Positions 7,310 to 64,000 of a DNA stretch of 64,000 nucleotides are shown here, piece by piece. How positions within the stretch are numbered: the stretch's first letter is position 1; the number at the start of each line of letters is the position of its first letter. The notes below the pieces were generated by a model. The model ran no database searches and was not told where the DNA came from. It worked only from the letters and a program-made list of their open reading frames with translations. Where the stretch lies: NCBI GenBank assembly GCA_030248065.1, contig JASAMV010006835.1, positions 124,001 through 188,000 on the forward strand. Reading direction: 5' to 3'. The position numbers were made by a program, and so were the translations under genes. The DNA is from Rhynchonema sp. JSB1_4 (taxonomy: Eukaryota > Nematoda > Chromadorea > Monhysterida > Xyalidae).

Positions 7310-8148
7310 CTTTGTCAGAAAGACAATTGCTTAAAACCCAGTGAGACAAAAGTAATTTTCTAGTCCGATGAATCCGTCATTTCTAATAAGGAATGCATGC
7401 AAGTTTTTTTGCAGACCTCTCTTCACTCTTACGCTTCAATGGTAATCAAAGGTGAAATATTGCGCGCGGCGTCGGTTTGAAAAAGCACAGCCCTTCCCAG
7501 TAAAGCTCACTACTCCTCCAGAAGCTTCATATTCCACACTGAAAGCAACTACAAGTCCCAGTCGTGGTGGCTCTCAACACCAACTGTCCCCAGCTGATTA
7601 AGAACAACATTTACATATAGAAGCTTGTATGGTTAATTTGAATTTGAAATGACATATCGCCCCGTACTCCTCGCAAGATCCAGGCTTTGTTTCAACGTTC
7701 TGTTATTTATCATCTATCGTAGCCTGAGATTTGTCTACATCAATTATAAACAAGTATCTGTCTGTAGGGACCCTTTAAACCAAACAAAGTTGGAACAGTT
7801 TTTCTCCGACTCACCTTCGACGTCCATGTCACCGGCCTGTTGGAAACGTCGCAGCATCTTCTCTCACAGATTGACGTGCTGAATTTCTGCTCAGGAGGCG
7901 GTGCGTAATTTCACAGAAAATAACCACTCTGGGTAACTGTCGGTGCAACGTGTTTCACAATAGCTGATGTTTCAGTCGAAGTTTGAAGTCCACGAGAAAT
8001 GAGTATGTACCCATGCATAATACAAAGTTATACCGAAATTATCTGCAAAGGGATTGTCCATGATTATTACTCGAAACGATGTTATTCTACCCAGCCAAAG
8101 TTGCGGGAGTCAAAAGGAAACATCGCACCAAATTCAGCGGTGCCACAG
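7310..8148. other. Non-coding stretch
   Basis: No recognised gene. One copy of the decamer TGATGTTTCA lies near 7965. An exon-like minus segment, about 7884-7812, has a strong donor GAAG|GTGAGT and could encode LRRFQQAGDMDVE, but it cannot be tied to neighbours in phase. Confidence 0.4.
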
Positions 8149-8275
8149 AGGGTGGAATTTTCGAAACGGTGTAGAGGTCAGTTGGGCGTAAAAGTCGTTA
8201 AATTCGTCAAAGCTCGTCGCATATATTACGTGAAACATTGCCGTTAGTAACGGGAATATGTTCAATAAACACCGA
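8149..8275. repeat. Hairpin MITE, family A, truncated copy
   Basis: It starts GGGTGGAATTTTCGAAACGG and runs through AGGTCAGTTGGGCG to the centre TGAAACATTGCCGTTAGTAACG, matching the left half and centre of the full copies at about 16207-16431 and 41848-42073. The right arm is lost after CACCGAGG. It lies downstream of the Kv gene's 3' end. Confidence 0.8.
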
Positions 8276-8780
8276 GGATCACACGAGACCCCCCCCCAAA
8301 AAAAAAGTAAAGTTGATCACCAAATCATGATTCATAAATTTATCTCAAACAATTCACGACACGAAACTGATTGAATTCACATGAGTGAACCACATGACAA
8401 AATCAACCGTAAAATAATAGTACCTGCTTGTGCGAATCGCTCGTGGTTGTGGTACACATCTGGGCTGAAGGCAATCGGATTATGATAACGACGTTATGCG
8501 TAAAAGATTATCAGCACCGACGTTGGCTCAGGTGCCAGACCAAAGACACAGATAATGCGCATTTGTTATGCAACCAGGCAAAATTATTCAATTAAAATTG
8601 TGCAAATAATATTTCCAGGCACTTCATAAAATCGGAGGCATTACATACTGTGCGTTGAAAATTATGCAATGCTATTATGCAAACAATCACGCAAAATATG
8701 AAGAAAAACCAGCTGTGGCCAGCCTTGACTGTGTTCAACCGTTAATCTCACAGGATGGCCGCAAAGAAATATGCCAATGA

Positions 8781-11700
8781 TCACGAAGATTCGTCCTCCG
8801 ACATTGATTCCGTAAATTTCTGCACCAAAATCGACACGGGCAACGCTGAGACCATCACTCCGAGCACGATGGTCACCGAACCCATTAGCTTGCCAACTGA
8901 AAACACGGCCAATGCATATAACATACTTACGGACTTGAACTCTATTGTCGCCACGACGTGTTACTGGTACAGTACTTTGCACTGATCCCAGAAGGTTCCC
9001 CCTTGGAAGCTCAATCAGGGAGCCTGCATTATTCATCAAAAAACGTAGTCTACAAATGGAAATGTCCGACATTGTTGTTCGTGTGGACTTTCAATGACCA
9101 AACCGGCTAGTATGGATGGACGCCACAAGCGAACCCATACAAAAGCGCTGCATTAGTGTTTTTGTGCTTCGCCGAAAAGCTGTTATTTGCAGCCGCCAAA
9201 TTTTGACGCGTTGGCCTTTATGATTAGGTGCTTGAGCATCACTCTCTTCCTATCTTTTGGTGCAGCCCGCCCGCGTTTTTGATAGCCAAAGGTTCTATAT
9301 CTCTTTAGCCACACACCCCTGTGTCAGGATAATCTTATTTATATGCGGGTCGGGAGTCGGGACGCCTTTTTTAGAAGCTTAACGAGGTGCAGAAAGGCAC
9401 TTGGCAGCTCTCAAAGTGGGGGCTCGAAAAATCAACCCATCGGAAATTAGGTCAGCAACTCACTAGCCGGTTCGTGTTGTGATCTTATTGCGATCATAAC
9501 ATGTGAACCAGCGTACTTTTTAACAAAATGGAGGTCTCAGAGGCACGGCTTCAACACAAATGTATGGCATCTTGTTTTAAGCAATGGGACCTGAGACTGA
9601 TGATTTGTTTGAGCATTGTGCACAGTCATTGTGATCGTACACCAAAGGGCAATTATAAGTCTGCTCACAGAGCTGACTAAAGTGCAGACTTTGATCAATG
9701 GCCGCGACGATAAGAATTGGCCTTGCTATTACCACTGAAAAACTGGTTCATTGTCGAATATAAGAATGGGAGTCAGACTCACGTATTGTTTGTGGCACGA
9801 TGTCACCGTAACCGACACTGCTCATGGTCACCAGGCACCACCACATTGCATCGAAGATCGACTAAAAAATGCAAAATTTAAAGATCGTTATTCTCACGAT
9901 GTCACAAATTGTGTGGAATTATGTGAAAAAGTGGTGAACTAATTCGATCGGTGCCATATCTCAAAGAATCAAGATCGGACGCTTTTTGATATACGGAATG
10001 AAAGTACTTCACAAAACGTCGCTTTGATTTGTCTTGTGATGAGTGCAAAGTCAGACCCGTCTATTGAAACATGTGGTACCAAGTCATGTACACGTGCAGT
10101 GCCAGTCTAACATCTGCTTACATCAAACTCGCCCATGTAAGCGTCGTCAGTGGTCAACGTCTCCAAATAGTAGACGGTCGTGGCACACAACACCAGTGCA
10201 ACGACCGCTATCATGAACACCGAGAACAGCTGCGTGGCCGATTTGTGCAGGATCGTGCCGAAACGCCGCAGCCCAACGCTGTACCTGTGAACCAGTGCAA
10301 CACCGTGTGGTAAGTATGTAGTAAAGAGTCGTACCCTGGGTCGCACGGTTGAATGAAGGGGTGCCCAGGGGACGGGCTGGTGTTCCTTTCTGTGTGTATG
10401 CGCGCGCATGCGAGAAACTCAACATGCACTTCACTCCTGTGCATTGCACTAACAGGAAAATTTTATGGCCAGTTGCTGAGGGAAAGCGAACATTGTGATG
10501 TCCAAAAAATCGGTTTTGAGATTTTGCCTGCAAATGGTGCTTAGAACGTTAGAACTGGTTAAAATCAATACATAAGCATAACAAACAAAGCACAAACATA
10601 TAAAAAATTGACGAAAACACACCTGGCTAGTTTGAGCACCCTGAAGACACGGAATATACGCATTATACGAAAGACCACCACCAAATTGGCGAGCAGCTGC
10701 AGACGCTCGTTGTTTTCCAGCACCAGACTCATGTCGATCACAACCTGGTGAAGAGAGCAGATATTTGCAACAAAAATTAACATGCGATGCAGTTTCTCAA
10801 AAAAAAGAAACATCATTGAAAAGTGAAGCCCTCAGAACTCAGAAAGTACCTCTATCCAAAAAGGCACGATGGCGATGAAATCGATTAGATTGAGTGGCGT
10901 CTTGAAGAAATGCCATTTTCGCGGCGCGACCATGAATCGAATCACATACTCGGCCGTGAAGTAGACCATACACACCCATTCGAGCAGCTCAAGACTGCGC
11001 ACAACCTGCTTGCCGTTTTGGCAGTCGTCCAGCTTTTTGACGTTCTCGGCTCGACGGGCCTGACGATAGAGATCAGTCTAAGTCGCTCCCAACTATTGCA
11101 TTGGCTAAATCTGCACACGTACATAGGTTTACTTGGTTACCAAACCGACATTTAAGCTGAACAATGTCGGCAAACTATACCGTCAGATGCGCGTTGAGTT
11201 TGCCAAATATTCTGAATATCCTGCGTATATCGGTGTGCATGGTCTGTGGATCACCCAGCCGCGGGTCGGGGCTGCCCGGTCGCCCACTAAGACCCATTCC
11301 AAGTGTCTTTGGCTTTTCGTTGCTCTCTTCATCTTCCACTTGAGTGTCATTTGATTCGGCGGTGGTTGAGTTGCTGTGACGTTTCCAACGTCGAAATCCG
11401 TCGGTGGACACGACGAAATGATGTTGTTGAAGTTCGTGCAGTCGCGCCGCTGAGACATGCGACAGATTCAAACGCTCGGCGGACACCGACACCTGGCGGC
11501 ATTCTTTGAACGAAGATAATGATCCCAATAGGAGGCCAACGAACGAGATGCAGATGAATGCTACTGCAATAACGGGCCAGTGTTAGATTCGTCTTTTACT
11601 GTGGGAATTTGTGATTGGGCTCCGTAGTGAGACAACTACTGGATGCCAAAACCATACGAATCACGACACAATCTGCAGCAGCTTACTTGACGCCAACATG

Positions 11701-12495
11701 AGCAATCGTGCCCAAACAGAACTGGTGGGATGATCCATCAGCTTGTGCACCACCTGTCTGAACTTGCCGCAACAGACTTTATCAAAGCCACTTTCCGGGG
11801 CCCAGTCGGTTTCTGCAATATCTTGTGTCATGAATCTCTGCAGTGTCCTTCCCGGTCGGAACTTAGGTCGTACTAAGCATGAGCCTGGGCCTGAATTTAG
11901 GCCTAACCGTACCTGATGAACAGTCATCATCATCACCATCCACTGGTCGTTCGTCGTACTTAAGTTGGTCTGGCACTTTCTTTCGGCAGCATTTCGCCAT
12001 ATCCCTAGTGGGAAAGGATTGCATGACATGGCAGTGGCAGCAAATTAAAGTTGAACGACCAAGAACAAATAAATTAGGCAGGAACGAACTCGCAACCGAG
12101 TTCCCAGAACTCAAGCTCGATTCTGAACTCCCATTTGCACAAATGCAACGGTCGATGCAGCTGACCGGTAATGTAGAAGTTGATGATGGCTTCGAACGCG
12201 GCGGGAGACCGAGCAAAGTAGTAGGAGTCCTCCTGCTCAAAGTACGCACCTGGAACCGGATCGCAGTTCATGCGTGCGTTATATGTACGTATGTAGAACA
12301 CGCGAAGCTGATTGAAAAATCTAAATGAGTCGAACCGGCTTCAAGACAACGTTCCTCATGTGATTTCAGGGTAAAATTGTGCAGATAGCCAGTCGGACGA
12401 CTCCTGATGGCCAACAACGGAAGACAGTAGTGCCGTCCACTGATGTTGAAACGTATGAATTCCTGAAACTGTTCCTGAAGAGTGTTTAAGCCCAT
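8781..12495 (-). CDS. Voltage-gated potassium channel alpha subunit (divergent Kv, Shab-like)
   Basis: Pore-forming subunit of a tetrameric plasma-membrane K+ channel. Nine exons join in perfect phase (1497 nt, 498 residues): 12495-12351, 12249-12097, 11812-11687, 11563-11181, 11059-10850, 10744-10623, 10284-10122, 9861-9783, 8896-8781. In order: T1/BTB domain ([19 protein letters not shown]), a CC pair, S1 ([14 protein letters not shown]), a long S1-S2 loop of about 110 residues, S2 ([12 protein letters not shown]), S3 ([14 protein letters not shown]), S4 ([16 protein letters not shown], six regularly spaced basic residues), S5, pore helix and filter (MSSVGYGD), S6 ([20 protein letters not shown]). 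The T1 domain has an HX5C..CC zinc-site pattern, which points to the non-Shaker classes. S2-S4 most resemble Shab/Kv2 and its silent relatives. The usual S6 PXP is PVS here, and the C-terminal tail is only about 15 residues. The ATG at 12495 is the first in frame; an upstream exon is possible. Confidence 0.9.
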
Positions 12496-12733
12496 GCTTC
12501 AGGCAAGAACGTTTCAGCGGATTTCAGGTTACCTGAAACGGACTGAAGCTCGCAACGGACCGTTTGAGGGCGTGCGCCTGCGCCGGTTTGCGTCTGGTTT
12601 GTGAATACCTGGGCAGTATTGATTGCACTGTCCCCAGCACCTCGCGTGCGCTGTCGCGTCGAAAAATGCCTGCCAACGTTGAACTTGGGACTGACTCATT
12701 ACACTTTGAGAAAGTAGCTATTCAATCGCTAAC

Positions 12734-15189
12734 CTCTGTGAAAGTGTGAATGGTTCTCCTTATCTTTTGCGGAAGCTCTCCGTGACCATTCGGGTACATT
12801 GCCGCCGGGCTGGAATGACACCCTGGTCTTGGGCTGTTTTGTGTCGTTGTTACCATTTACGCTGCTCATGTGCCGATTCACAACGGACTTCGGTCGTTCT
12901 CCTTCTCGTAAACTGACGGAATGATGCAAGATGCTCTTGGCGGGACTGGTTGGCAACGACAGAGGACTTGATGACGTCGTGGATTCGTCACAGCCACCTG
13001 ACGCAATAAATCGAAGGACATTAGCACCGATGAACCGTGCACCGATGGTCTGAACATAGTTCATCAAAATGGATGCCAAATCGCATTGCACGAATATTCG
13101 GTGTCTATAATGCCTCGAAGAACGCAGAAATAGTGTCGATTCTGATAGAGCGAAAACCTGCCTCTGTTTGACTCAATGTCATTATGTTGGCTGCTGCTAC
13201 TGCTCTGAGCTTTGTGTTCCGGACTGATCTCGGTCGCTTCTGTTTCCGGGTCCGAGTCAATGTTCGCCAACGTGTCCAGCATGCGTTCGAATCCTGTTGG
13301 GGAACGTTGTGGCACGGTCGTATCTGGAAATGGGATATCTGCTAAGAAATGCACCAATGCAGTAATCCAGACAGTACCCGAAGAATACAGTCAAAATATC
13401 TTGATTGATGCACCGGCTACCGTTTATTTTGCATACCTTGCATGTTGTTTGCCACTGTTGAACACTGACTGAACAGTGGATTACTGGACACTCGATGGTC
13501 CATTCCAGCTCGTGGATGGCGTACAAGAACGTAGGGCACTTTGCTGCAAATGAAAGGGTTTGAATCTGGAAAGGGTACTTGCCTCACGATCATGTCATGA
13601 AACATCCTGTCATCTTAATGGTGAACCTGCATTTATAGATAACCTAGCCTTTGCTGCATCGCCCCAATTCTCAGCTACACAAAGAGTCGTCACCCAACAG
13701 TCGCCTCCAACCCACACTCTATTCCCACTCGGTCCGATTGTCCTAGTGGCAACGACGTTGCTCGGCTTGCGCCCGCTGGTTGTTGGTTTCAGCTGTGTGT
13801 TCTCACCACTCCCATTCTCTTCGTCGCTGTCCTGCTCCAATTCGTAATCCGTACTGAAACGCTTCAGACTTTGTGTGATTCAATAGACGGTTCAAGAGAT
13901 GATAGGTTCATTGGCTCTTTGTTGTCAGTCTGGCCATTATGTTTTGTTCGGAGGCCAATTCTCATTTCGACATCACAAAGTCACAAATCATGCCTGCGTT
14001 TCGACAACCCAAATAGAACGGACCAATTGTTCGCAAATCGACAACTACCGAGACGAATAACGCGGCGCGGTTTTTGAATCAGTCCAAATTTAGTCAGAGT
14101 GAATGTCTGAGAAAATTACATTTCTCACTAATCCTACATCTTTACCTGGGATACATCAATGGTGGTTTTACCAATCTCTGCACTTTTCTACTCAATCTGG
14201 TGAGAATAATGAAATGATACTGGTGTATGTATGCATACCCTTCGCCTGCTGTGCCCGATTTCTTTTTCATCGGACGTCGAAATTGAGTGACCGAAGATGC
14301 ACGGAACATGGATGGTCCGTTGGCGGTCACGTCTCCTGCTTCAGTCGTTATGACGATTCGCGGCCGATGGAGATGATTTCTGAAATTTATCGATGAATTT
14401 TTCAAACAAATTCAAACGTTTTCACTAAGTGTGTTTTTGAAAAAACAGCGAGTTGCATCCTATTGTGGTTTAGTTAGCATTTGGCACCAACCTTCGTTGT
14501 CGACTGTTCTTAACATATAGAGAGGACTTTTTGCGCCTTGGTTTTGGGTTTCGCACCCCATCCACAGCGGGTCCCATGGCGCACCGAATCATGCCCGCAA
14601 ATTAAAATTTATTCACTCACAGTCGGGTTGACCAATTGAAATAGACTGGGCACAGACAAAGGCACCTCTGACACAGTGATTCTTTCGAGCTGGGCCACAG
14701 AACTGTCATCTATTTCTCATCTGCACAGCACGCGCAGTGGAAACGTTAGTTGCACAGATTACGTGCTTGTAATACCTACTTCAATTTTTGGCGCTCATTG
14801 TAATGTGGCACGCACTATTATGTAGGTATATGTGCAACATACTATAGATGTCACCAAAAGCACATGTAATCGTGTCTAGCAGCGTGCTCTTCGGTGTTTC
14901 CAAACACAGATGTGTACTAATGTTGTTGAAATGTCTTTCCGACACAAGCAATAACGTGCGGAAAAAACTGCATATACAGTGCGTTAACTACTGAAATAAA
15001 CATACACAAACTTAACAGCGTGCCAAAATGTTTAACTGAAGAGCTGTATACATACACGCGTCTATTGGGGTGTGGTTTAAATTTAAACTTACTTGAAAGA
15101 GCGAAAATAATTAAAAAAACTGAACATCGACATACCTTTCCCAGACCGTCCACCGAATGTGCCCAACACTCAGAATGGCGACTGCTGTC
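12734..15189 (-). CDS. Unrecognised Ser-rich protein, multi-exon chain (possible 5' part of the Kv gene)
   Basis: Six exons: 15189-15136, 14379-14239, 13853-13716, 13543-13437, 13338-13158, 12997-12734. The first five join in phase without stops. The sixth is open only in a frame that needs a small intervening exon. Recognisable stretches are RPRIVITTEAGDV, QFRRPMKKKSGTAGEG, ELEQDSDEENGSGENTQL, FERMLDTLANIDSDPETEAT, QSSSSSQHNDIESN and STTSSSPLSLPTSPAKS. The bias toward Ser, Pro, Glu and Asp suggests a disordered cytoplasmic region with many possible phosphorylation sites. No domain is recognised. It lies directly upstream of the Kv T1 exon on the same strand (gap about 240 bp), so it may be a long N-terminal extension of that channel. 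However, no phase-correct splice from 12734 to the T1 exon was found, and a separate gene is equally possible. Confidence 0.55.
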
Positions 15190-16205
15190 CTAAAATCTGC
15201 GGTGCACCAGGCACGAAGTTACGTAAAGATGTACAGTTGATTTCCAACACCGCGTGTAGATCTTATCACAAGGACCCAAGCATGCGGTGTTGTGGCTTTG
15301 GGTAGTCGTTTTTTGTACTTCAACAGCTCGAAGGCGACACGACGCGTTCTGTGGTGGCGAACCTGCGTGCATGTACAGACAGCGTAGGTATCTCTACTCC
15401 GTGTCTTGGTTCTTTCTCAATGTTTGGCACACATAAGTACTCATGACCAAGTGGGTTGCCGCGTGCGAGGTGTCAAGTGGCGAGTTACACAACTCGGACT
15501 ATTGGGTGCCTCCGCAAGCCACCATAATCGAACGGAACCAGAATGTTGTTGTGGGGTTGAGCGCATTTTGTTGCAGTAAACGAAGGGCGCATTTGAAAAT
15601 CAGCCAGTAACCTATGACATAACAGCCTGATTTTAGACATGGGGTGGTACGGAAATAAGGCTAAACCAGCGCGACGAAATCAGAAAGAATGGCTCCAAAA
15701 AATTTCAAACTCGAATTTCACGAATCAAAACTCGAATTTATATATGCTGATCTAACTCAGAAACTGAATGCACTGATACACGGAATGTGATGTGACTTAA
15801 ATTGTAAAAATTGCGTTTGGTGCTGCATTTTGGCATTGCATTTTACGGAACGAAGAATATCGAACTTTGCGTGTTTTCGTCAACTCTACGGGTGGTAGCA
15901 TGCTAGCAAACAAATCTATGTTTTGCGATGCCTCATGTCGTCGTGTCCTGTGTCTTACGATCACAAAAATCACCAGTTGCAGCACACAGCAGGTGATCAA
16001 CAAAAATGCTTCAAACGCGTGCAGACTCGCTGGGTGAGCACCATTGGGGCTATCTCATACAGGTTCAGGTTCGCACGTATGAACCTGCACTCGTACCGTA
16101 ACCGCAGCCAGCTGGTCAAAATGTACGATCAAGCATGTGGACCTGACGATATGATAATCAGCAACGCCAAACTTGTTCTTTTCGCTGTCATCACCACAGC
16201 CACTA
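15190..16205. other. Non-coding stretch between divergent genes
   Basis: No coding exon is recognised on either strand. The missing 5' exons of the plus-strand kinase gene or of the minus-strand chain may lie here or between the repeats up to 17790, but none could be identified. Confidence 0.4.
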
Positions 16206-16206
16206 T

Positions 16207-16431
16207 GGGTGATATTTTCGAAACGGTGTAAAGGTGAGTTGGGTGTAAAGGTCGGTGTAAGCTCAATCAAAAGCTCGGTCGGTGTCAGCTCGGTGTAAAC
16301 ATGAAACATTGCCTGCTGTTAACGTGGAATGTTTTATGTTTACACCGAGCTGACACCGACCGAGCTTTCGACCGAGCTTACACCGACCTTTACACCCAAC
16401 TGAGCTTTACACCGTTTCGAAAATGCCACCC
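16207..16431. repeat. Hairpin MITE, family A, full copy 1
   Basis: Near-perfect palindrome. The left arm is GGGTGATATTTTCGAAACGG..TGTAAAGGT..AGTTGGGTG and the right arm mirrors it up to CCGTTTCGAAAATGCCACCC. The arms are built from the short words GGTGTAAA and CTCGGTCGG, and the centre holds ATGAAACATTGCCTGCTGTTAACG. About 225 bp, no ORF of its own. Related copies lie at 41848-42073 and 8149-8275. Confidence 0.9.
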
Positions 16432-16680
16432 AATGTTTTCGACATTCGCTGCGGTCATGTTTTCATGTACGCACGCGTAAATCAGCATCAATCAGAATTA
16501 GTGAGCACCTGCTCACCGCGGTTGTCGTCAGGACTTGTGTACAGTCCTGGCAAGAAGTATCGATCGTAGAGGGTACAAAAAGCACACTTTTCTGGAACCT
16601 GCACATGAGGTATAGGCTAATCAACTTGTGGGACCAAAAATGGGTGCCCAGCAGTTTGAACTGGGATTTGTTTGACTTAA

Positions 16681-16804
16681 GGCCACTTTATACTTTGTCT
16701 CGTTGCGATACACGCAACATTTTCTGACGCGCTGATTGGCTGTGTGTCGGGAAGCCAACACCCGCAAAAATGTTGTTTGACTCAACGGGCAGGACAAAGT
16801 GGCC
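16681..16804. mobile_element. TTAA-flanked MITE
   Basis: GGCCACTTTATACTTTGTC at the left is mirrored by GACAAAGTGGCC at the right, with TTAA directly outside both ends, the target-site signature of piggyBac-type transposons. 124 bp. The interior holds GCGCTGATTGGCTG, also seen in the family B hairpins, so the two may be distantly related. Confidence 0.7.
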
Positions 16805-17090
16805 TTAAGGGCGGACTTAGGTTGAACACGAAACACGGAACTGTTTCCGTGCTCTGGTTTCAGTGATCAGTCCGTCCTTGGATTTCTATCTGTCGTCCAC
16901 GTTAATGTACACTTGAGGCTAAGCCTCATGTAAGTCCATGGGTGACATTAAAAAATGGGCACCTTAGTTTGTTTTGAGGCCGTCTTCTAGGACGGGTACG
17001 GCTCGCCACGACTGTACGTGCAGTGAATTCGCATAATTGCGTATCGAAAGTGACACATAAAGCGACTATCACTGAGCAATATCAAACTTG

Positions 17091-17110
17091 ATGATCGGAT
17101 CGGATCGGAT
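17091..17110 (+). repeat. Short GATCG tandem
   Basis: Four near-identical units (GATCG GATCG GATCG GATA) form a very short microsatellite in spacer DNA. Confidence 0.6.
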
Positions 17111-17150
17111 ATGACTTGCCTTGGTCACGTGTGATTCTTGCATTGAGGAT

Positions 17151-17790: not shown

Positions 17791-40217
<22,427 letters not shown>

Positions 40218-41050
40218 GGACTACTGAGCACACAAATCAACAACAACGACTACTTTCGCTCTCTACGTAACCTGTACACGAAAATCCGACTACTTTGAAA
40301 CATTACTGTAGATTTTAACTCTGCAACGATATTATTTTCTGATGTTTCATCTAGGTGTGTGCCTTCACAAACTTCTAATCGCGCCTTCTTTACGTGACAC
40401 CTTAGCACAAGTTTGAATTGTGTTTTACTCTGTTTTGAGGCTTATATTATTACGGTGTCACCAAATTACATGCAGCTTTTGCAACGGCGCGTATTCTTGT
40501 TAGTAGCGTTTCACTACTTTTTCTTGACAAGTTTCGCTTGATAGACTTTAGCATGCGCGTGTTTGTGTGTGTGTTGTGTACCCTTGGCTTCGTGTACCCG
40601 ACACAAGATGAACGATTGACACTGCGAATCCAACTGTTGTTTTTTTGATTTATCATCTGATTGATTTATCGAATTATCGTTTTTTTACATTTCATTTATT
40701 GTGCATTTTGCAGATCTGTCTCATGGAATATTGCAGACACGCAGTTCTACTCTGAGTATATTAAAGAACATAAAATTAATGGCAACTTTTTCGGATTAAG
40801 TCTCTGTGAGTGGCCGACCCTCCCGCTCTGCAGTTGATTTTAATCCTTATAACTGCTGTTGTTGGCGTTTCATTATGTTTTTGCTCGTTCTTTCGCATAC
40901 ACACACTGAATTACCGAAGCAACTTTTGACTGTTTTCTTTCGCTGTTCATTTTCATTTTTGATTGTCACATTTATACTTTGTGACTCATCGTATTTGACT
41001 CCATTTATTACGTGCCGTGCTGCTTTGCAATAAAATGATTTTCGGTTGAA
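40218..41050 (+). other. 3' untranslated region of the giant kinase gene
   Basis: AT-rich sequence after the stop at 40217 with no further Ig exon. It contains one TGATGTTTCA decamer near 40340 and leads to the AATAAA at 41029. The exact poly(A) site is not visible in genomic DNA. Confidence 0.6.
41029..41034 (+). terminator. Poly(A) signal AATAAA for the giant kinase gene
   Basis: AATAAA preceded by GCTTTGC and followed within 30 bases by T/G-rich sequence. It is the first canonical hexamer downstream of the stop in a suitable context. Confidence 0.6.
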
Positions 41051-41847
41051 AAGCCCTTGTTAAATTTATTTCAACTTTTTATTTCGTCATTAATTTAAGA
41101 AAACAAAAAGTGACAACTTTTGTTCTAGAACAGGTCAGTGGTGCCTAAAAACTGGTTTGCATATTGCATGGGAGTACATAATCTACAGACAAAAAATCGC
41201 TATCAAAGAATAATAAACGGACACTGTGATAACCAGCTTGTCCTAGATTTACAAGAATCCAAATAATTAAGAAAAATAATGTGTTTTGCCAGCTTTACGA
41301 GAGAAAATTTTTTCAACTTCGATTATTCATCGTAAACGTGGCTCAGCTGACATTTTTCAAACCACAATAATGAAAGCCAAGACTGCATTAAGCTGGAGTT
41401 ATACTTGTCCATTTTGGGATTGTAGACAATGAGGACAAATTTTTTTTTTGTCATTTTTGTGTGGTGTGACTTTCTTGCGAGTTGTTCTTTGGGCGGGCTT
41501 TGTGTCGACCCCCCCAAAAAAAACCCCCCCCTTAAGATCAAATTTTCCACCAACATTTATACATACAGTTGAATACCCGAGATTAAAACTCCTCTTCAAG
41601 AAAAACTGTGCACGCAAATTTACAAGTACACATAATTATGTATAAGAACACAATCATGATCTATACCGGAAACATGAGCAAATACGCATGGAAGGCATGT
41701 TTGGCCATCGAAGATAGAACCATGACATGAATAATGTAAAACATTCAATCTCAAAGTTCTTGGTTATTCCGGAGATTTCAGCATTCTAGGCTTATTAGAT
41801 TGTTTGACTCTTATCAGACAGGATGCTGAAATTACTGTCCAGCCTTT
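41051..41847. other. Spacer between convergent genes
   Basis: Non-coding on both strands. It holds poly(A) and poly(C) runs near 41510-41530 and AT-rich sequence. No RNA gene is recognised. Confidence 0.5.
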
Positions 41848-42073
41848 GGGTGGAATTTTCGAAACGGTGTAAAGGTCAGTTGGGCGTAAAGGTCGGTGTA
41901 AAGTTCGGTCGAAAGCTCGGTCGGAGTAGCTCGGTGTAAACGTGAAACATTGCCTGTTATTAACATGGAATGTTTCAAGTGTACACCGAGGTCTATCACA
42001 CTGAGCTGTCGACCGAGCTTTCCACCGACCTTTGCACCCAACTGACCTTTACACCGTTTCGAAAATATCACCC
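41848..42073. repeat. Hairpin MITE, family A, full copy 2
   Basis: The left arm GGGTGGAATTTTCGAAACGG..TGTAAAGGTCAGTTGGGCG is mirrored to CCGTTTCGAAAATATCACCC. The centre GTGAAACATTGCCTGTTATT matches the centre of the 16.2-kb copy. It ends about 100 bp beyond the ChaC stop codon. Confidence 0.9.
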
Positions 42074-42176: not shown

Positions 42177-43761
42177 TTACTCCTTCAACACATTGTCTGT
42201 CCTCAGCCTCTCTTTGACCAACAATTCAAGTGTGTACAGATGTTGGTCGTGAAAATCAGGGAAAAGTTGTCTCGTGCTTTCGGCTAATTTCAGCAGGTAA
42301 TCGGCATTGCGACCGGCTTGACCCTGAATGAGCAAGGTGGTTGATCACAAATCTAGGAAATGAGTATAAAAGAGTGGGAAATGGGTCGGTAGAAAAACAA
42401 GAAGCTCAGCAGACAGTCAGAGTTCTGCGCTCTGCTCTTGGTGCGTAAAATGGCGGTGATGCTGGGTGCACGCAACTATAGTCACGACTGGTAGGAATTT
42501 AGGAAAATCTCAGAACATAAAAGCAAACTGATAATATCGAACCTTGGCGACAGCGATTTGCTTGGCGAGTGAAACATCATCCTGAGGTCCCACATAGTCG
42601 TCATTGTGCGCACGTGCGACGCACGTCAACACATGACGATCGATCGATATGCGATGACCGATATCGACTTGCACGCTCAACGTCTCGTAATTGTATCTGC
42701 ATGGACAAATATTGATTGATTAAAATGATTTGTGGGTGATGTTGTCATCATGATCTTCAGTGATTGGATATGCAAAACAACGGCATTTTAATGTACATAC
42801 GAAAAGCTCTGAGATACACCAATGGCCAACCTACCCATTCTCAATCTCTCTGTACTGCAGATGTTTCAAGGCAGCCTGTATTTGATTGACACCACGTACG
42901 CGGAAGATCAGACCAGCGACAGTGGAATCGGCTTGTTCGGTTATGGTCACAACTCGACCCGGCTGAAACAAGCAGCAGTTTTGGTCTGGTCACCAACGCA
43001 ATTTGTGTGTCCTTCGGACCCAACTGTGCACTGCACTCGCACTAACGATGACCTAATGCACCGCCCGTCTGTGAAAACACGCACAAACTGGCAATCAAAA
43101 CGTGCTGCATAATTCACTTAAAACAATGGGTACGTGTACTAGCGCTCTTTCAGTGTTATTCAAACAAACAAAGGCGCATTTTCAGTTTTTATGGCACGAA
43201 AAGGAGCGATAAAACCAAGCGTCTGGGCGCATTTATCAACAAAACGAGTCGCGTGATGGTCAGACTTCCAGACGCCAACTGTTTTACTTTCCTCAAAAAG
43301 CGTGCCAACTGAAACAATTCACGTGCCTGGCGCGTGGCAAGCTACAAAGCAAAAATCCTAGATACAGAATGAAAGGACAAAGCCATAAAAATCAAAAAAA
43401 TAACTCAACAAATATGAAATGCCAAGGTTTTATACTCACCCTCTCTTTCGTGCCGCGATGAAATGTGTTGCCATGCCAGAATCGTCGTGCATAGCCCACG
43501 GCCACTGCCTTGCGAACTTCACTGTGCTCAAAACCCGGATTCCAAATTAGTGAACCTGAAATTAACATTCGTATTATTTTTCACGCATTTAACGGAATAA
43601 GAAATTCTGAGAAAACATCTGTCAAACATACCGTATCCAAAAATCCACAAGCTCGGCAGTTGAGTCTTTGGGTCGATTTCGAATAGATTCATGATGTCAT
43701 TGAGTCGTTGTGTTGATGTTTCGGGCTGCTGTTGATCAGTAATCAAGAATTGATCGAACAT
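42177..43761 (-). CDS. ChaC-family glutathione-specific gamma-glutamylcyclotransferase
   Basis: Cytosolic enzyme that cleaves glutathione to 5-oxoproline and Cys-Gly. Five exons join in perfect phase (675 nt, 224 residues): 43761-43632, 43555-43440, 42962-42835, 42696-42543, 42323-42177. The substrate-binding loop LWIFGYGSLIWNPGFEHSEV is split by the first intron. Then follow GYARRFWHGNTFHRGTKERP, GRVVTITEQ, HLQYREIENGYNYE (conserved acidic residues of the active site), RAHNDDYVGPQDDVSLAKQI, and AGRNADYLLKLAE..HLYTLELLVKERLR. These are in family order, and the length is near ChaC1/ChaC2. The N-terminal 35 residues before LPSLWIF are unlike the family core. The start used is the first in-frame ATG; the frame is open upstream to about 43815 with an acceptor-like TTGTCAG, so an upstream exon is possible. 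The gene is convergent with the giant kinase. Confidence 0.92.
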
Positions 43762-46024: not shown

Positions 46025-46934
46025 TAGTAGTAGTACTTTATTTCGTTTCAGACACGAAAAGGGTAAACATCAACAACCGCTCGAGGCGTGACAGTAACGA
46101 CGAATACATTATGCAATTTCGACTTTTCTTTCACATACAGTACACCTTCATCGCTGGACACCCATTTACAAAATTTTGAAAATTTGGACACAACAATATC
46201 AGCAGGCAAACAGTTGTGCACATTGGACATCAATACAAGAGGTGAAGAGGACAAGACAGAATATTTGCATCTGGGTACCATAACAGCACGGGAATGATTG
46301 GAACGGGAACTTTTGCGATTTGACACAGTAGTTTTCAGTACAATGAAGCCAACAGGAAAATGACGGAAACCACAGACATACATGTGCATCAATTTCATAC
46401 GCCTGGAGAAAACAATTGAGCTGATGGCGCGAACACCAAACAAATCAAGTAGGGTTGTATAATCAACATCACGATTCCAATTTCCGAGGAACAGACGAAT
46501 ACAATACTTTTGAGTTCGCTCAAACAAGTCACGATCACGATTATGGGTGGGATATACGGCTTCAATGGCGTACAAGAGAACAGATTGCAACAATGTAACA
46601 TAGAAGTATCGACGAACATTCAATGAAACATCACGAAGCAACACACGATTCAAATATCCAGCATTACGTTTCACTCGAGCGCAAGTAATAGTAGCGTGAT
46701 CAGACATATCAAATTTGGAATCAATAACAGCACCAAGATATTTATGTGATTGCACAACAGTGACAGGCTCAGCATTGACAGTAATAGTGGGAGCAGTCAG
46801 AAGTGGACTGGACCGAGTGAAATGTTGGATTTTGGTTTTGTTGGGATTGATTGTGAGTAGTTTTGATGAGAAATACATAAAGCCCCCTCCTCGCCCCGAA
46901 CAGAGTCCAGGGAGCTCTAGATAGAAAATTTGCT
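46025..46934 (-). pseudogene. 5'-truncated LINE: C-terminal part of a non-LTR reverse transcriptase
   Basis: A minus-strand open frame (stop at 46048; first ATG at 46878, frame open to about 46934) carries features that follow the catalytic YxDD box in non-LTR reverse transcriptases: LTINPNKTKIQHF, then VVQSHKYLGAVIDSKFDMSD, ARVKRNAGYLNRVLLR and a thumb/connection region of about 200 residues ending VVTVTPRAVVDVYPF. The palm with YxDD, the endonuclease and any ORF1 are missing, as expected for an incomplete target-primed insertion. Downstream of the stop (lower coordinates) the minus strand reads GAAATAAAGTACTACTACTA, a short trinucleotide 3' tail like those of CR1/RTE/jockey-type elements. 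The frame is intact over 276 codons, so the copy is fairly young. Confidence 0.85.
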
Positions 46935-46935
46935 C

Positions 46936-55300: not shown

Positions 55301-58300
55301 GCAATTTCGCTCATTAACCTCAATTTTGTGACTTTTCAACGGTCCACTCACGACAACCATACTGACCACTTGTTGAGTCCAACTCAGCCCCCCAAACAGT
55401 TATGCCCTGTTTGGCATTTTTGTGCAAAATATCGGAGGACTGATCGACTTTCAATCGACATTACGGTTTCATACATAATTGTGCACGATTAGGGTGTTAA
55501 TTTACAAGTTAGTTTGGCTGACATGCTTATATATAGTCTTTCCGTTTTATAACAGTCCAGAGGCGGTATACAGAAAATGTTTCAACGCCTTGAAAACAGT
55601 AGTCATCGTCGTGGATGATAACCAACAGGCCGACAACGTGGCTCGAAACATGCGTGTTACTTGATGGCTGCAGTTGCGATGAAACATTTGCTGTATACTT
55701 TGTTTGGACCGAGAATAAAATGAAGCACTATACCTGCTTTTGAAAAACACACTGGTGCATGCCATGATGGAGCTTTGTTCTTTCCTTCTATACTATCAAG
55801 CGCTCTTCGCTGCGAAATTCCCCGTGATTTTCTCTTGTTGAAGTGCTGGTCTTGTACAATTTGTTCAATTTTTTTTCAACATAAATCTTGTGTTCTGTTC
55901 GTTTTCATTACGCACATCCAGCGATCACTTTACTGCACACCCATAAGCAGCTCGGTTTCTTAATAGGTTCGACACAAACGCCTTGAAACATCACATGTGT
56001 TTTTAATTTGCCATGATTTTCAAGCTGAGCATTGTTTTCGCAACCACCCCATCTATATCCCCGTCTATATCACGCAATGCGTCACCCTGGCTGCCCACCC
56101 CCAGACATGGGAAAGTGTCCGGTACACTAATCCATTACAAAAGTGTCAAAAAGTTACTGAACTTTTTTGACCCGACTTTTCGCACTTGGCAAGGGCGGAA
56201 CGCTATACATCGTTAGCCGCGTTACTAATGACCTCATAAATTTGTGGAATTCTCCCAGACGCTTGGGTGGTTCGAAGTGCTTAATTTGGTATATTTGTTC
56301 GACATTTTACAATTTTTCAGGAATGTTGTGTTTTTAGAATTGCGCGTTATTTGGGATTTAGTTAACAGTGCTTCCGCAATTCCTTTACGGATCAGGCTCC
56401 AGCTGGCACGAAATTACCGGAGCCACGATTTCTTTTATTTCGGACTCTGTCTTTAAAAAGAGAAGAGACTGGAACTCTGAGAACCCTTGGGTCCCCTGGG
56501 TGCACATTTTTTGTAAAACCTCGAGTGTAAAAATGATGTTCTGTGAAATGTTCATGTCTGTTTTTCGATTTGGCGGAACCACAACAAAGAAATATAAGAA
56601 ACGACTACCGTTTAGCAACACATCGTATACTATTGTTGCACAACTAAACCCGGGGGCTGGGGTGAACCTTTATTGTGTTACCCATAAACACCCCGCTTAC
56701 CGCATTGTGAAAGAACAATTGTTCTGGACATAAATTTTGTGAACTGCGGGTCGGGGTTCAACAAAAAAACCACGATACGAATACTATGAAAAGTCTACAT
56801 AGCCCTCGCTTCCCTCTAGGCTAGACGCTTATAAGTTTGGACAAGGTACCGAAAACACAGACTTTACTCCTGTCCAACCGTGCATGCCCGTCATTCGTGT
56901 CCAAAATTTCTGGCTGAAATGAATGCACAATGCAGTGTTCCAAAAATTTCGTCCCAAATTCGCTTCCTTTAATCCGTGTGCGCTCCAAAAGCTGATGAAA
57001 AAATTGATTGAATGTTTTAGCCAACTGTTACCTCTTAAAATCCGACGCCTATCCTTTCCGGTGCAGACCTGGCACCCCACAATTACATAATACAAACATA
57101 CACGCTTGCGCTTTACCTACTGCATTGTACATATATTCGGTTCTTGGCTAACAACACCCCCCCGTATTTTCGCTCATGTTGTCTGTTGTTACATGCTTTC
57201 AACTATGAGTGACTATGCGCAGCATACTGTTACCTATATGTATGTCTTGCAACCAACGAAAATGTAGCCGCAAGCCTAAAAATAACAGTTGTTCTCAGAT
57301 AAATAGGGTAATGGGGTTGAGATTTCGGTTGATTAATGTTTATTAAATCTGTGTTTACCTTCAAAAAAATGCCATTTTTTGACAGAAGCCAACAGCCTGA
57401 AGCAACACATTTATACATACAGTATACTACTGTATAGGCCCATGGGGTACCTATACATAGGGGCTCCACCTTTTGGATTTGATTTCAACAAAAGCTCCTG
57501 TCGCTCACGTGTGGATTTCTAAAATTTCGCGCAATTCCATTGCTAAAATTCACAAAAAACCACACCAACTATAATCTTCGAATATAAATCTACGTACATG
57601 AGTATTAGCGCTTCCGACAGTTGCTTCTGGAATCAAATCAGATTTTGAGGAAATTTAAACAAAAGCGCCTGTTTGTCAAACTAAATGCACCGCCTGTTCA
57701 CTGTTTTTTGCTTGAATAACATTTCCTTTATTTGTTTATTATTCTCATTTTGCGGGACACTTTAGCGCATTCAATACCTACATATTTCACTTCCCGTTTC
57801 TTTCTTAATTCAGCTGAGTTACGGTATCGTATATGTAGCTTACCCCGTTCCAAGGCAAAAGCTCTTTGATTTGCAAAGCAGCTTTTGTGCGCTTGTCGCT
57901 TACCGTCCTGTGGCCCAAAGGCTTGGTTTTTATGTTTTATTATTTTCTGCTAATGTGTAATCCACACCTGCGCGTGTGGAACCGTTAGTATTTTATGTTT
58001 GGATTGCATTATCGACTAATACGGAGTCAAAATATTCCTGGCGTACAACCCCCGTCCAGGCCCACTTCCCGTTTTAGCTGCTGCGTCTAAGCTGGCTGTG
58101 CTACGCATCCTTGAAACATCTCCGGTACAGAATTGCTGCTAGCACGCCTTCGTTTTATAGTACAAATGTAACTTGCATATATTCTGTGATGCGATGCCCA
58201 ACTTCATACACAGTGTGTAGGCTCCATTACAGAGGCGGTATAAGTTTTTAGCCAAAGCTTCCCCCACAACAGTGCGTGAGCTTGAAATCATTTTGACTTC

Positions 58301-60479
58301 ATTAACACTGCTGGTGGGTGAAGGCTTCAAGCATTGGTCCAGAAGAATTCTGATGGAGCTTCAACCCTGACTCATAAAGCTCAAACTGCCATTCTATCAC
58401 TTAACTTTGGTTTGTTTCTGTTTCCGTTAAAGTTTCAAGTTTCGAAAGTTGGCTCAAGTGCATCCCTTTTTTTTCGGGGACTGTGTCACGCGTGCATCTT
58501 GGAAGTAAATGCAACGCTAATGGTATATACTTGAAATTGGACACTTCGATCATCGATAACCGCTCCACACGTGGTCTTGTGCATTTGATTCCATGTTACG
58601 CCTTAATTTTATTGTTTTCTGGACCATGGTGTAATTTTTGGGCGGCAAAACAACTCCTGCAAATCTGTCGTCCTTAATTCCAATAATACAAGACCAGCTG
58701 CTGCGGATGGACGTTCCGTTTAATTCTTGTGACCAGACTCGTATTTTCTAGAGACTGTCTTCTCGTTCCACCTATTGATTCGCAATCACAAACCACATAA
58801 TCCTATTCTGACTACCACGAATAAGTAGCAATAATTTGTTCCATTTATAAAAACTGTGTCACAAATGTTTAGGAGTAATGCCACTTCTATGTAAAAGGGG
58901 TTGGTTCAGCGGACAGATGGTGTCCAACAAGACCGCATGCACAATCAACAGGTTGGCTGTTATTGCAATTAGGCACTGTTTCAGCCTAAAACTCAACCTA
59001 GACAGTTGGCGTTTTATTTTATTGTTATTAAGCGTTGTCTTTACATTGCAGTGACGAGACGACTATGACCCTGGTCCACATGCCTGCGTGCGACCCTGGT
59101 TACGGTATGCAGTACTTGTACCTACTCATACATCCTGTTCTACAAAAGTCTTGTGCCAACTTCTTTTAAAATCTTTCGCTTCAAGGAGCAAAATTTTGCT
59201 AACTTCCATATGCCTAAAACAAAAACCGCTCCACATAAAAAATTATTCCGCTGTTCTTTTTTGATAACCAACAAAAACGGTGTTTTCTTCAACCAGTGGT
59301 GTAACACATGGCGTAAGCACACACACACGCTTCATAAATAGTAGCACTGTGTCCAACCCATTATATTTCTTTTGTGTTGCGCGCGTCTAACATCTGTCCA
59401 AGTAAAACCAGACCGTACTATTACACCAGTGCTCACCTTCCACACTGAAATATGTACAATCGTGGATCCTTTAGTTTGTGGGTACTGCGAGTCTGTCAGA
59501 GTCTGCAATCTGGTTTTAAGTTCTTGATGTATGCAATTAAACTGTATGTTAATAGTTTTGGGACCCAATTTACTTGTGGCTGCTCACATTCACGTGTGAT
59601 TATGATAGACAAGCAAGACACGTGCTGCTATCTTTCTTTCATGAAACATCAGCTTATTGGGTACCACCATAGTCCCGGTCCCGCCAAGATTCAGGCTCGT
59701 GGACCTTTAATATGCCTGAGCTTACGCCCAGCCAAAGATGGTACCCAACATAACATCACTTTACCCATTGCGCACCCCGACAAGTGGGCGGGACTTGTTG
59801 CACATTGACAGACCCAGACCACAATGTCGCGTGTGTTGATGTGTATCTGTTCGCTGATTGGTCACATTGGCCGCAGTCGCAGCAGAATAGTTCGGGTTCG
59901 GTCTCTCAAACAGATGGCGTTTCTTGGTCTTGTGCCGATTCGGGTACTCTGTGCACATGTAACCATGTTTACGGCTGTTTGATGCTCATCTCATGCGCTG
60001 TTGCGCGCTTGCTTCCAGTGTTTTTGGCTCTGCGTTACTTGTGCACAAGTGCCTGCTCATCCGCGGTTCTTATTATTTCTTATATTTTTCGTGTTAGTCA
60101 GTTTTTACCTTTCACTCGCCTGTGAATAAGAATAACCGGCTTATTTTGTTTGTTAATAAATCCATACTTGCTTCCAATTGAAAACATCACAAAACATACA
60201 TACTGTATACCGCCTCGAACGGTCATGTTAATGCTTGGTCACAAAACCATCTGCCTGCCCCATTATCAGGCCATGCCGGGGCCTGTTACCAATTTTTTGG
60301 TCACCTTGTGTCCACTGTGTAAATCTGACCGATTCTAACTTTCAGTTCCGTAATATACTGGCGTCACAATGCATCAGCTGCCGACAACTGACTTCAGCGG
60401 TGCATGCACATGATATCGTGTATAAATTGGACTAATTACATATACAACAGAAAGTTACCGAAAGTGCGCGCAGCCAAAA
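52325..60479. other. Gene desert upstream of the Delta-like gene
   Basis: About 8.2 kb with no recognised exon. Open frames (for example 56368-56733 plus, 121 residues) lack family resemblance and splice context. A G+C-rich island near 54270-54380 contains the hairpin CGGGCT..AGCCCG. TGAAACATCA copies lie near 55984 and 59642. The stretch is a candidate regulatory landscape for the developmental gene that follows, but no specific site can be named. Confidence 0.5.
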
Positions 60480-62798
60480 ATGTCAATATTTCTGCCTTTG
60501 CTCAGGATATCAGCTTTACTACTTTGGGTCGCAAGCCAGGTTTGCTTTGAAAAAAGATATTTTACTTTCTCAATATATCGAACCTTTATCTTTGTCGGAA
60601 TTCATATTTTTCAAATTCCCGCCCACTCTTATTCAGGCGCACGGCGACGGTCAGATCGAGTTGCGCCTGATTCGTTACCGTAACCCAGAACGGCGTTCAT
60701 CCGACGGGGCATGTTGTCGCTCAAACAGCCATTCAATGAAACATCAGTCATCCTGCCATTCTTCGTGCAACTCATTTGTGCGTGTCTGTCTCAAACAGTA
60801 CCAATCCAAAGTTGACCCCAGTCCACCCTGCGTTTATGGCAGTCGCCGTTTGGACATTTTTACGCGTGACGCAGTGGAGTTTAGCCAGCTGTCCAGTTAT
60901 GCGGCGCCATTGCAGTTTCCGTTCGACTTTCAGTGGCCGGTCAGTGGGTTTTTCTCTTTTATTCCATTTCATACGTCTTGTCATTGTGGACTGAAGTTAT
61001 TTCAAATTTAAAGTGCCAGTCTGATTAGTAATGTTGTTCACTTCGTGGGTGCAAAAACCCATGTGACCCTCATGATTTTTAATGCACAACATCACGTTTT
61101 GTAGACACATATAAACATGAATAAACCATTTCCCAAACAAAAGGATGGGAAAGCAGAGTTTTTGTGAAACTGCTTCATTCATTTTCCCGCTCTTATGAAT
61201 GCATACGCAGGTGTGCATCGTGCCTGCGCATAGTTAGTAAAAACCGATGCTTCAAAAACTGAGTCTGAGAAATTCTATCAAACACTTAGCCATAAATTCC
61301 CGGAATGGTTGAATGGGCAGATATCAATTGTGCAACAATCTTGATTATTATAGGGTGACTTCTCGCTGATCGTTGAAGTTTGGCACAATGTTACTGGGAC
61401 CGGGTTCGGAGAAGAAGGCAAGATATCATAATTTCTTTATTTATCCATTTTGAGTTTGTTGTTAATTCTCCATTTATGAAACAATGCTTGCAAAGCGACC
61501 CAGGTGGTAGTACACCTTATAATATGCAGCGTATGTCTTGCAAAAGTCACTGGTACCAGTTGTGAGCTTATCACAAAATATTTTGGCTGCTTGGCTGGCA
61601 GGCGCCCGCCAATAAATTATAGACTTCTTTATTCCGTGCAGTGCAAATGTTACCTTTGGTCTTCTGATTAAAATTCTCGGGTCCCATTTTTGAAGAAAAA
61701 AGTTTCGGCACTGAAAACTCACGCATTGAAGGGGTACCGATAAATCTACCAACTTCAGTGGCTCTCTAATCAATCGCTTTTGGTAATAAAACTGTAGTTT
61801 ATGTGTTTATAGAGTGTGTGAGCTGCACACGGGGGCACGCGACAGCCCAGGTACATACACTGTTGGTGACATTTTGTAAACAGTTGCCTATGGGGCCAAC
61901 TTACTCTTCGCACACAATACAGAAAATGCCACACTTTTCGTACTTTATTGTAATGTTGTTGATACTGCAACAATGGCAATAATGATGTGTTGGTGTACAC
62001 TTTCGGGAACGGCAGTGGCGGATCCAGCTTTTGGCCAACGGAGGGACCCCAAGGGAGGTCATGGCCCATGTGGCCCCCTGGATCCGCCCCTGGGGAACGG
62101 TATGCTTATTGCGGGTGAGAACGTAAAATGAGAAGTGTGCATGGCATAAAAGTAGTAACTTATAGGGGGCTAGAAATATGGGTGTTCAGCACGGGCCTTC
62201 GTTTCATTCTCTTTGGGGCACAAGGCCTGAACCTCTGGATCGTGACAGAAGGGGATAATTTCTGGAACAATGTGACATCTCATCCAAAAACTTTTTGAAA
62301 CATCAGACCAAAACATTTTTCAGCGTCGAAACAACTGCTGGTGCGTGTGGCCGAACCGCGTCATTTGCTGATGTCGCCTGAGTGGACGCACGAAACACAC
62401 ACAAACGCGTTGACTGCGTCGAGCATTGAGTTCGAGTACAGGATGGTCTGTCAGAGAGACTACTTTGGACCGAATTGTGCCAAGTGCGTTAATATTTTGG
62501 ATCACGTTGTTGTTATCGTAGGATTATAGCTGCACAACGCACTTCTTTCTGACCAATCAATGCTTTGTGCCCCCTCCCGATGGGTATGATAACAAGGGAT
62601 AAGTTGTTTGTCGTCCTGCCCATCGTCAGTAAATTATCAGACTGCTCGATTCACCAAACCCAAACTTTTTCACAAATTTAACAACTTTCAGATACTGTCG
62701 CGCCCGAAATTCCACCACCACTGGTCAGCATTACTACTGTGATGTGAACGGGAACAAAAAATGCTACGTCGGTTGGACTGGAACGAACTGTCAGGAGT
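60480..62798 (+). CDS. Delta-like Notch ligand (DSL family), 5' part
   Basis: Single-pass membrane ligand for Notch; only the N-terminal part is in the window. Five exons in phase: 60480-60539 (signal peptide MSIFLPLLRISALLLWVASQ), 60637-60939, 61354-61417, 62324-62483, 62692-62798; 231 codons so far. The MNNL domain is GDGQIELRLIRYRNP, then CC, SFVRVCLKQYQSKVDPSPPC, PLQFPFDFQWPGDFSLIVEV. The DSL domain is FEYRMVCQRDYFGPNCAKYC, RARNSTTTGQHYYC, KCYVGWTGTNCQ, with all six DSL cysteines. EGF repeats, the membrane segment and the tail must lie beyond 64000, since no EGF exon was found in 62799-64000. The ATG is supported by the signal peptide and by its splice into the conserved MNNL start. Intron 3 appears to use a GC donor (GAAG|GCAAGA) and hosts a hAT MITE. 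Confidence 0.93.
62013..62092. mobile_element. hAT MITE with perfect 8-bp target duplication
   Basis: CAGTGGCGGATCCAG at the left is mirrored by CTGGATCCGCCCCTG at the right, and GGGAACGG is repeated exactly on both sides (62005-62012 and 62093-62100). An 80-bp miniature element of the hAT superfamily in intron 3 of the Delta-like gene. Confidence 0.93.
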
Positions 62799-64000
62799 GT
62801 GAGTTGATGTTTCATGGTTTTCTTTGAATTTTTGGGCTTCATTTTTGTTCTCGTTAGTTGAAACGTTAATGAAACGGCAGATGTGTCTTTAGAAACGAGC
62901 AATTAAAATTCTAAACAATAGCCAATTTGAGCACAACTCAAAGTCAATAACAAGTGCAAAAGTCATATCAGTCTGTCTGACAAAAAGGTACCCCATTGTT
63001 CTTTCACAAGTGTACCTAATTAGCGCACACCTGTGTGTTTTTTGCACCGGGGGTCTCTGCTTGTGTACACGCAACGCTTCGCGCCTCAGACTAGAATGTC
63101 AACAAATGGTTTACATTGGACTTTGTTTCCGGTCCTGAACAATGAGCTCGGCATTAGTGTAAAAACGTTGTTTTTGCTGTTCTCAGTTGTGTTCGGGGTC
63201 CCGTTGTTGGGAACTTATTCATAACTGTTTAGTGAACCAAAATGTATCCAAAATATCACAAGTTTTGCACAATTGATGTACGCACGTACTGTACCTAACA
63301 TGCGCATTGTTTGTTGCGCCCCATATCCACCTAATAATGGGGTCGCACCTTCGGGGCATGTTTACCCCACCGTTGTGTGGTGGGTGGTAACCTGCACATT
63401 TACATTTCGTGGTGCACGTTGTTGTCTTCAACTCCGCACCATCTGCTTGACGCTTCAACGTCTCATGCATATGGCGTGGGGATGACCCACTCATTACATG
63501 GGTATAGGTAGACACATGAGTCTTTTTGGTTCGAAAAGGTCTGTTGCATGAAAATATGGACATCTGGACGAAAGGGGGAGCGGTTATCACTTGATGGATA
63601 GGGCACGAAGAATTGAGATGTCTGGAAAATGAGATTTGGGGATCATGGCATTTTCTTGTGAAGTTCTGTTGGTAATATCTTTTATAGTTTTTCTATTTGG
63701 GCGCGTCAGTGCGTATAATACTCTCAAATCCATACTGTACCACAAACAAATAGAAACATTTCTGGTCACAACAAGCATACAGCGTGATGCAAGCAAAAGC
63801 ACTTGAGAAATCGTCACATGTTTATCGAAAACACACATACATACATAGAAAGAAATTCATGTGCGCGCAAATGCGTAACACCTGGCGTGTTTGTCTCTGG
63901 CGCACACGCATTATCACGTTTTGCTTTCTGCATCAAACGTGCACTTGATAATAAAACAGATGCCCGCTGAATGTTAGTCACCAGGGTTAAAGAAATTATT
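62799..64000. other. Start of a long intron of the Delta-like gene
   Basis: Follows the donor GAGT|GTGAGT. No EGF-type cysteine pattern is seen to the window end. One TGATGTTTCA decamer lies near 62806, eight bases after the donor. ORFs here are short and unremarkable. Confidence 0.6.

Follow-up and report, generated by a model that had tools for sequence, protein, structure and literature searches.

A decamer dispersed throughout a nematode genome matches small nuclear RNA promoters and may mark promoters of short, piRNA-like RNAs

Here we describe a ten-letter word, TGAAACATCA, that recurs in a 64-kb window of the genome of Rhynchonema sp. JSB1_4 (the window being the whole stretch analysed, positions 124001-188000 of contig C4200 in genome G000) and throughout the 203.9-Mb, 5,747-contig assembly to which it belongs. 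Its reverse complement, TGATGTTTCA, resembles a promoter element of the small nuclear RNA (snRNA) genes of the same genome. By analogy with the PIWI-interacting RNA (piRNA) loci of other nematodes, we put at roughly 55% the probability that the ca. 37,000 dispersed decamers are SNAPc-type promoters of short, piRNA-like RNAs. SNAPc, or a SNAPc-containing complex, would bind the dispersed decamers, a short transcript would start about 45 nt downstream, and this transcript would most likely be a piRNA precursor destined for PIWI.

The window contains 20 exact copies of TGAAACATCA, 14 on the plus strand and 6 on the minus strand, in agreement with an earlier note on this DNA, which had counted about 20 by eye; 19 of the 20 positions given there lie within 4 bases of ours, and the remaining one, 30641, is really 30629. 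Dinucleotide shuffles of the window yielded a mean of 0.50 copies (none of 100 reached 20), a trinucleotide Markov model with the decamer copies left in predicted 0.49, and among all 10-mers of the window the decamer ranks first after poly-A. The same note had proposed a count over the whole assembly against background as a check, and this proved to be far from background, with 18,727 + 18,829 = 37,556 exact copies compared with 345 for the word read backwards. In a readable sample of 332,740 bases, 93 decamers were found where a 5-mer Markov model with the copies masked predicts 2.9. The fold excess differs because the choice of background differs, from about 109 (reversed word) to 32 (5-mer Markov model, readable sample). 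We found no point in favor of chance, of base composition or of a fault in the assembly as the source of these numbers, and we regard such readings as negligible in view of the genome-wide count and of the far lower numbers given by shuffles and Markov models. The decamer is a real, genome-wide word that has been either maintained or recently spread.

SNAPc binds the proximal sequence element (PSE) of snRNA genes, and known PSEs are confined to a few tens of genes. We located U1, U2, U5 and U6 loci with Rfam models, counting positions from where the model match begins, and found a forward match to 7-10 of the 10 decamer letters at a fixed place in 28 of 31 loci (the misses being L034, L038 and L054; L049, a weak U2 match, is not counted). 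Eight of the 10 U1 loci match at -44/-45. Two of them, L036 and L039, carry the exact decamer, whereas the other six have TTATGTTTCA or a less close match; in seven of these eight, GAATGAC or GAACGAC lies five or six bases downstream of the match. All eight U2 loci match at -47/-48, mostly as TGATGTGACA. In four of five U6 loci the match is TGATGCTACA, placed at -56, and GATAAAA lies downstream of it. For U5, a prediction had been recorded beforehand (a match of at least 7/10 with the same orientation, ca. 45-50 nt ahead of the gene), and it held in 8/8 loci, which match 8 or 9 of 10 letters at -45/-46. Some snRNA loci are duplicated; over the 28 unique promoters the summed score is 229, whereas 3,000 shuffled decamers gave 155.4 ± 10.2 and at most 210, and the reverse complement gave 151. 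Because the snRNA promoters match in position, orientation and score, TGATGTTTCA is very probably the upstream half of the PSE at the snRNA genes of this nematode and hence a SNAPc site. Among the explanations offered by the earlier note, a genome-wide protein-binding site thus gains support, and the site can probably be named. The decamer shares position, orientation and sequence with the PSE at the U1, U2, U5 and U6 genes; however, while the snRNA PSE serves few genes, here one of its halves recurs 37,556 times. One U1-like locus, L039 (on C3984), carries the exact decamer in its promoter followed by TATAAA at +17, and so mixes a Pol II (RNA polymerase II)-type gene with a Pol III-type promoter.

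T-richness gives the dispersed copies a polarity that agrees with the promoter orientation. T is enriched at +13 to +19 (0.345 versus 0.258 in 91 copies) in an orientation-specific manner, and likewise in 18 copies of the variant TAATGTTTCA (0.349 versus 0.234), but not in 85 other NNATGTTTCA words (0.245 versus 0.271) or in 124 words that begin with TGATGTT and end differently (0.289 versus 0.284). For this and other later flank statistics we used a set of 92 copies from which duplicates had been removed and to which snRNA-locus copies had been added, so that it contains two U1 promoters (L036 and L039). In this set, TATA occurs at +15 to +28 in 11/92 copies (10 if the U1 locus L039 is set aside), compared with 2.4 per window and a maximum of 7 in 36 windows, a signal that arose from a scan of many words and is a lead only.

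Outside the decamer itself, the copies have little in common. In an alignment of 86 rows with 120 bases on each side (both members of the duplicate L006/L008 included), only two columns outside the decamer rose above threshold, a weak one at -1 (C) and another at -104. The flanks therefore differ, as had been stated earlier, and the alignment, which had been suggested as a means of detecting one decayed transposon family, revealed unique flanks and no shared family. In the readable sample, the flanks of GAAACATCA were distinct in 100/104 copies. The word is also strict in this sample; all 30 one-letter variants together number 109 (56 expected), and the excess is concentrated in TAATGTTTCA (21 versus 1.8 expected), TTATGTTTCA (9 versus 2.5), TGATGTTTCG (9 versus 2.0) and AGATGTTTCA (7 versus 1.6). 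Genome-wide, words with at most one mismatch number 92,371, whereas the reversed word reaches 15,893; at this scale a halo of variants does exist, and TAATGTTTCA is well represented in it (6,526 versus 620 reversed). In the duplicated pieces L034/L035/L038 (ca. 80% identity), where usable pairs are few, one of two decamers has been kept and the other carries one change. Exact, sharp-edged words of 8-12 bp that recur about once per few kilobases are familiar from bacteria (DNA uptake sequences, HIP1 and Chi), and the decamer resembles these in exactness, sharpness of edges and density, although it belongs to an animal genome and matches that genome's own promoter element. We also noted a second, smaller dispersed word, GTTACGGTA, with 17 copies and 17 distinct flanks (1.1 copies expected) in the window, C4200, C17, L001-L004, L006 and L031-L049.

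Contig C4200 carries 154 immunoglobulin (Ig)-coding segments, all on the plus strand, as detected with a locally built profile. These segments hold 12 decamers in 22.4 kb and the rest of the Ig regions 38 in 76.8 kb, and the 50 copies are split 21 to 29 between the two orientations. All 12 decamers within Ig-coding segments occupy match columns of the Ig alignment (a few of them at segment ends, where the profile may enter an intron), which means that residues have been replaced and none inserted. The Ig and Notch-ligand regions together contain 62 copies in 114 kb and the other 114 kb of C4200 contain 10, a comparison drawn from one contig with region limits set in this analysis. A 16.5-kb region of four giant frames has a single decamer, in a short gap between two of the frames. 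This region (C4200 77786-93725, to the left of the window) comprises frames of 814 to 1,563 codons that are partly internally repetitive, with Ig segments of a titin-like gene on either side.

These distributions bear on two other explanations that had been raised for the word. By eye, several copies are closely followed by 3′ splice sites, as the earlier note had observed, which favors a motif that acts in splicing, at branch sites or otherwise on RNA; given the 21:29 split of orientations in plus-strand genes and a density in coding parts equal to that in the rest of these genes, we consider such a role highly improbable, and the proposal of a selected splice or branch-site signal is not supported. 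(The equal strand counts genome-wide are uninformative alone on this question.) Slightly less improbable, in our view, is that the decamers are remnants of a mobile element or a short sequence that spreads itself by conversion. Against this stand the unique flanks in the sample, the restriction of most of the variant excess to a few forms and the 12 Ig-segment copies that replace residues, although some copies do lie in duplicated DNA (L006/L008 and L034/L038), the one-mismatch halo is genome-wide, and miniature inverted-repeat transposable elements (MITEs) are abundant in the window. The remnant core of a mobile element, one of the possibilities listed previously, is disfavored by the same unique flanks, by the small decay halo in the sample and by the in-register substitution in Ig segments; for a self-spreading sequence there was no positive evidence, although a conversion drive retains a small probability. 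Unique flanks, sharp edges, few variants, both orientations and residue replacement therefore argue against a decayed transposon and a splicing signal alike, and on the basis of genome count, flanks, variants and Ig orientations we rejected the splice-signal, MITE-core and chance readings.

The genome looks nematode-like from its 57 matches to the cuticle collagen domain Col_cuticle_N, a family not known outside nematodes, which had no match in 14 control genomes (those named are prokaryotes). COX1 places the species only loosely; among 120 of 7,999 rows, the best relative reached 76% and named ones about 64%, with insects, crustaceans, Peripatoides and the nematode Heterakis at a similar level. 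The SL1 sequence was not found anywhere in the genome with one mismatch or fewer. Piwi-domain matches number 54 on 17 contigs, and we read pieces from 13 of these (all but C1663, C3368, C815 and C1227). One, L061 on C4595, is a PIWI-clade fragment, scoring 72.7 bits against Siwi and 32.1 against the best AGO-type chain, and C1663 and C3368 have matches at nearly the same profile positions. The other pieces look AGO- or WAGO-like by eye or are too short for a call. By eye we take L065 and L067 to be WAGO-like; comparison with PDB places L065 no more closely than as an Argonaute (best, AGO2, 69.7 bits). Two Argonautes, on C971 and C4966, look WAGO-like by eye. PIWI is listed as absent from the Clade I to IV nematodes covered in one report (PMC4323106), and a later survey records it outside Clade V in two plectids only (PMC6436959).

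The closest parallel is the C. elegans Ruby motif, CTGTTTCA, which precedes the first U in type I piRNAs by ca. 40 bp (PMC4015492; PMC6317315). This motif is described as derived from the SNAPc motif, with an inferred ancestral form that contains GTTTC, and more generally the nematode piRNA promoter is reported to derive from the snRNA promoter (PMC6436959). The decamer and the Ruby motif have TGTTTCA in common in the same sense, both occur in thousands of copies (here 37,556 exact decamers, each with the GTTTC core) in nematodes with PIWI, and both are kin of the SNAPc motif (PMC6436959; PMC4015492; PMC6317315). The snRNA-type orientation and spacing are also shared, and the PIWI-clade gene, although represented by the L061 fragment only, is present in the genome. 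In Pristionchus, dispersed piRNA loci are reported within active genes in both orientations, as is the decamer here, and in Plectus the snRNA and piRNA promoters are described as alike in motif and place, a likeness that parallels the present case (PMC6436959). However, the Plectus piRNA motif, a full SNAPc motif with GTTTC, keeps an extra 5′ SNAPc part according to that report, whereas the dispersed copies here consist of the decamer and a weak T-rich stretch. Unlike Ruby loci, they are also a strict 10-mer that does not avoid coding parts of the Ig genes and lacks YRNT enrichment near the expected start. We suggest by analogy that the dispersed decamers most likely represent a Ruby-like class of promoters in a nematode outside the well-studied groups. 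The earlier note knew of no description of the word; the kind of element is in fact known (the Ruby/SNAPc motif, PMC6436959), and among the listed papers that contain the letters of the decamer or of its reverse complement, judged by titles and the beginnings of abstracts, none treats such a motif in this role.

Several results weigh against a piRNA-type role. The downstream half of the PSE, which seven of the eight matching U1 loci have, was not seen at dispersed copies (no conserved column in 86 or 92 copies). In the 92-copy set, YRNT was not enriched at +41 to +49 (55 versus 59.5 ± 5.8 expected) or at +38 to +52 (95 versus 98.9), and in simulations YRNT in 15% of copies would have exceeded the observed narrow-window count in 98.8% of runs. 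There was no low-GC stretch downstream in these copies, whose GC profile is flat, which may speak against a low-melting (pausing) stretch like that of Ruby loci. TTATGTTTCA, which most U1 promoters of this genome carry, shows little dispersal (2,024 genome-wide versus 1,728 reversed). Moreover, decamers are as dense in Ig-coding parts as elsewhere in the Ig genes; in Pristionchus, introns are reported to hold 97% of the piRNA loci that lie within genes (PMC6436959). In the wider interval from +35 to +60, YRNT showed a weak excess (184 versus 172.0 ± 8.3), which leaves room for a scattered start. Either this genome follows a different initiator rule or its copies serve another end.

Such another end might be that the decamer is a SNAPc-related or look-alike site whose copies, instead of making piRNAs, give rise to short RNAs of other kinds (by Pol II or Pol III), label gene bodies or act as landmarks for pairing or recombination. 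A match to the snRNA PSE without a YRNT signal would be expected of such a site, and both the TATA at +15 to +28 in 11/92 copies, as in a Pol III-type snRNA promoter, and the gene-body enrichment on one contig (62 versus 10 copies per 114 kb) point in this direction. The TATA lead came from a scan of many words, however, and 0/18 TAATGTTTCA copies carry TATA; in addition, a PIWI-clade gene is present in the genome, and to our knowledge the piRNA motif is the only large dispersed SNAPc-derived set known. We think this alternative deserves to be taken seriously, although we doubt it.

The piRNA-promoter reading has a broader form, which we advance only tentatively and at somewhat short of even odds. 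In this form, the nematode would belong to a lineage other than Clade V and perhaps other than the plectids, and selection would have planted one PSE half at ca. 37,000 sites in its genome, with no preference for introns over coding sequence. At these sites it would drive tens of thousands of short piRNA-type units without the C. elegans initiator, as an older or independent form of the Ruby type. If the half-site reading is true, Ruby-type piRNA transcription would here be built from a PSE half that is still used by snRNA genes, and a strong constraint at the DNA level would overlie protein-coding sequence. A genome that combines a PIWI gene, no SL1 (at most one mismatch) and 37,556 copies of an snRNA-promoter word would make possible a direct test of the origin of piRNA promoters.

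The copies in the window are as follows, the strand being that of TGATGTTTCA (the snRNA-promoter orientation).

7965..7974, plus strand: decamer copy
23158..23167, minus strand: Ig-gene intron, directly before a 3′ splice site by eye
26193..26202, minus strand: Ig gene
30629..30638, minus strand: within an Ig-coding segment (TETS on the plus strand)
32101..32110, minus strand: within an Ig-coding segment (VKHQ on the plus strand)
32963..32972, minus strand: Ig gene
35025..35034, minus strand: Ig gene
35242..35251, plus strand: Ig gene
35809..35818, minus strand: Ig gene, with TATA at +15 to +28
35998..36007, plus strand: Ig gene
37763..37772, minus strand: probable Ig-gene exon by eye (FDETSF)
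38928..38937, plus strand: Ig gene
40340..40349, plus strand: decamer copy
42570..42579, minus strand: decamer copy
46624..46633, minus strand: within the 295-codon frame 46048-46935 (minus strand)
55984..55993, minus strand: decamer copy
59642..59651, minus strand: decamer copy
60737..60746, minus strand: within frame 60436-61011
62296..62305, minus strand: decamer copy
62805..62814, plus strand: decamer copy

Frame 60436-61011 (plus strand) matches the Notch-ligand MNNL domain (E value, 4.1e-25). The 295-codon frame had no match in a Pfam search; by eye we take it to resemble the end of a non-LTR (long terminal repeat) reverse transcriptase. Rfam models gave no match in the window.

Of the inverted repeats in the window, a MITE-like family (family A; 16206-16432, 41844-42073 and 8145-8203) has TGAAACATTG near its centre. 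The earlier note had seen a core related to the decamer there, but the word is not the decamer itself, and by MITE coordinates none of the 20 copies falls within a MITE arm. Two further inverted repeats (24942-25061 and 275-392) have arms of ca. 51-53 nt that are 100% and 87% complementary, respectively, and the two copies share 83% identity. Nested inverted repeats occupy 21219-22345; their arms measure 165 and 200 nt and are 92-93% complementary. C4200 also contains tandem arrays at L024 2489-6277 and L025 3478-5437, with repeat shifts of ca. 88 and 137 bases.

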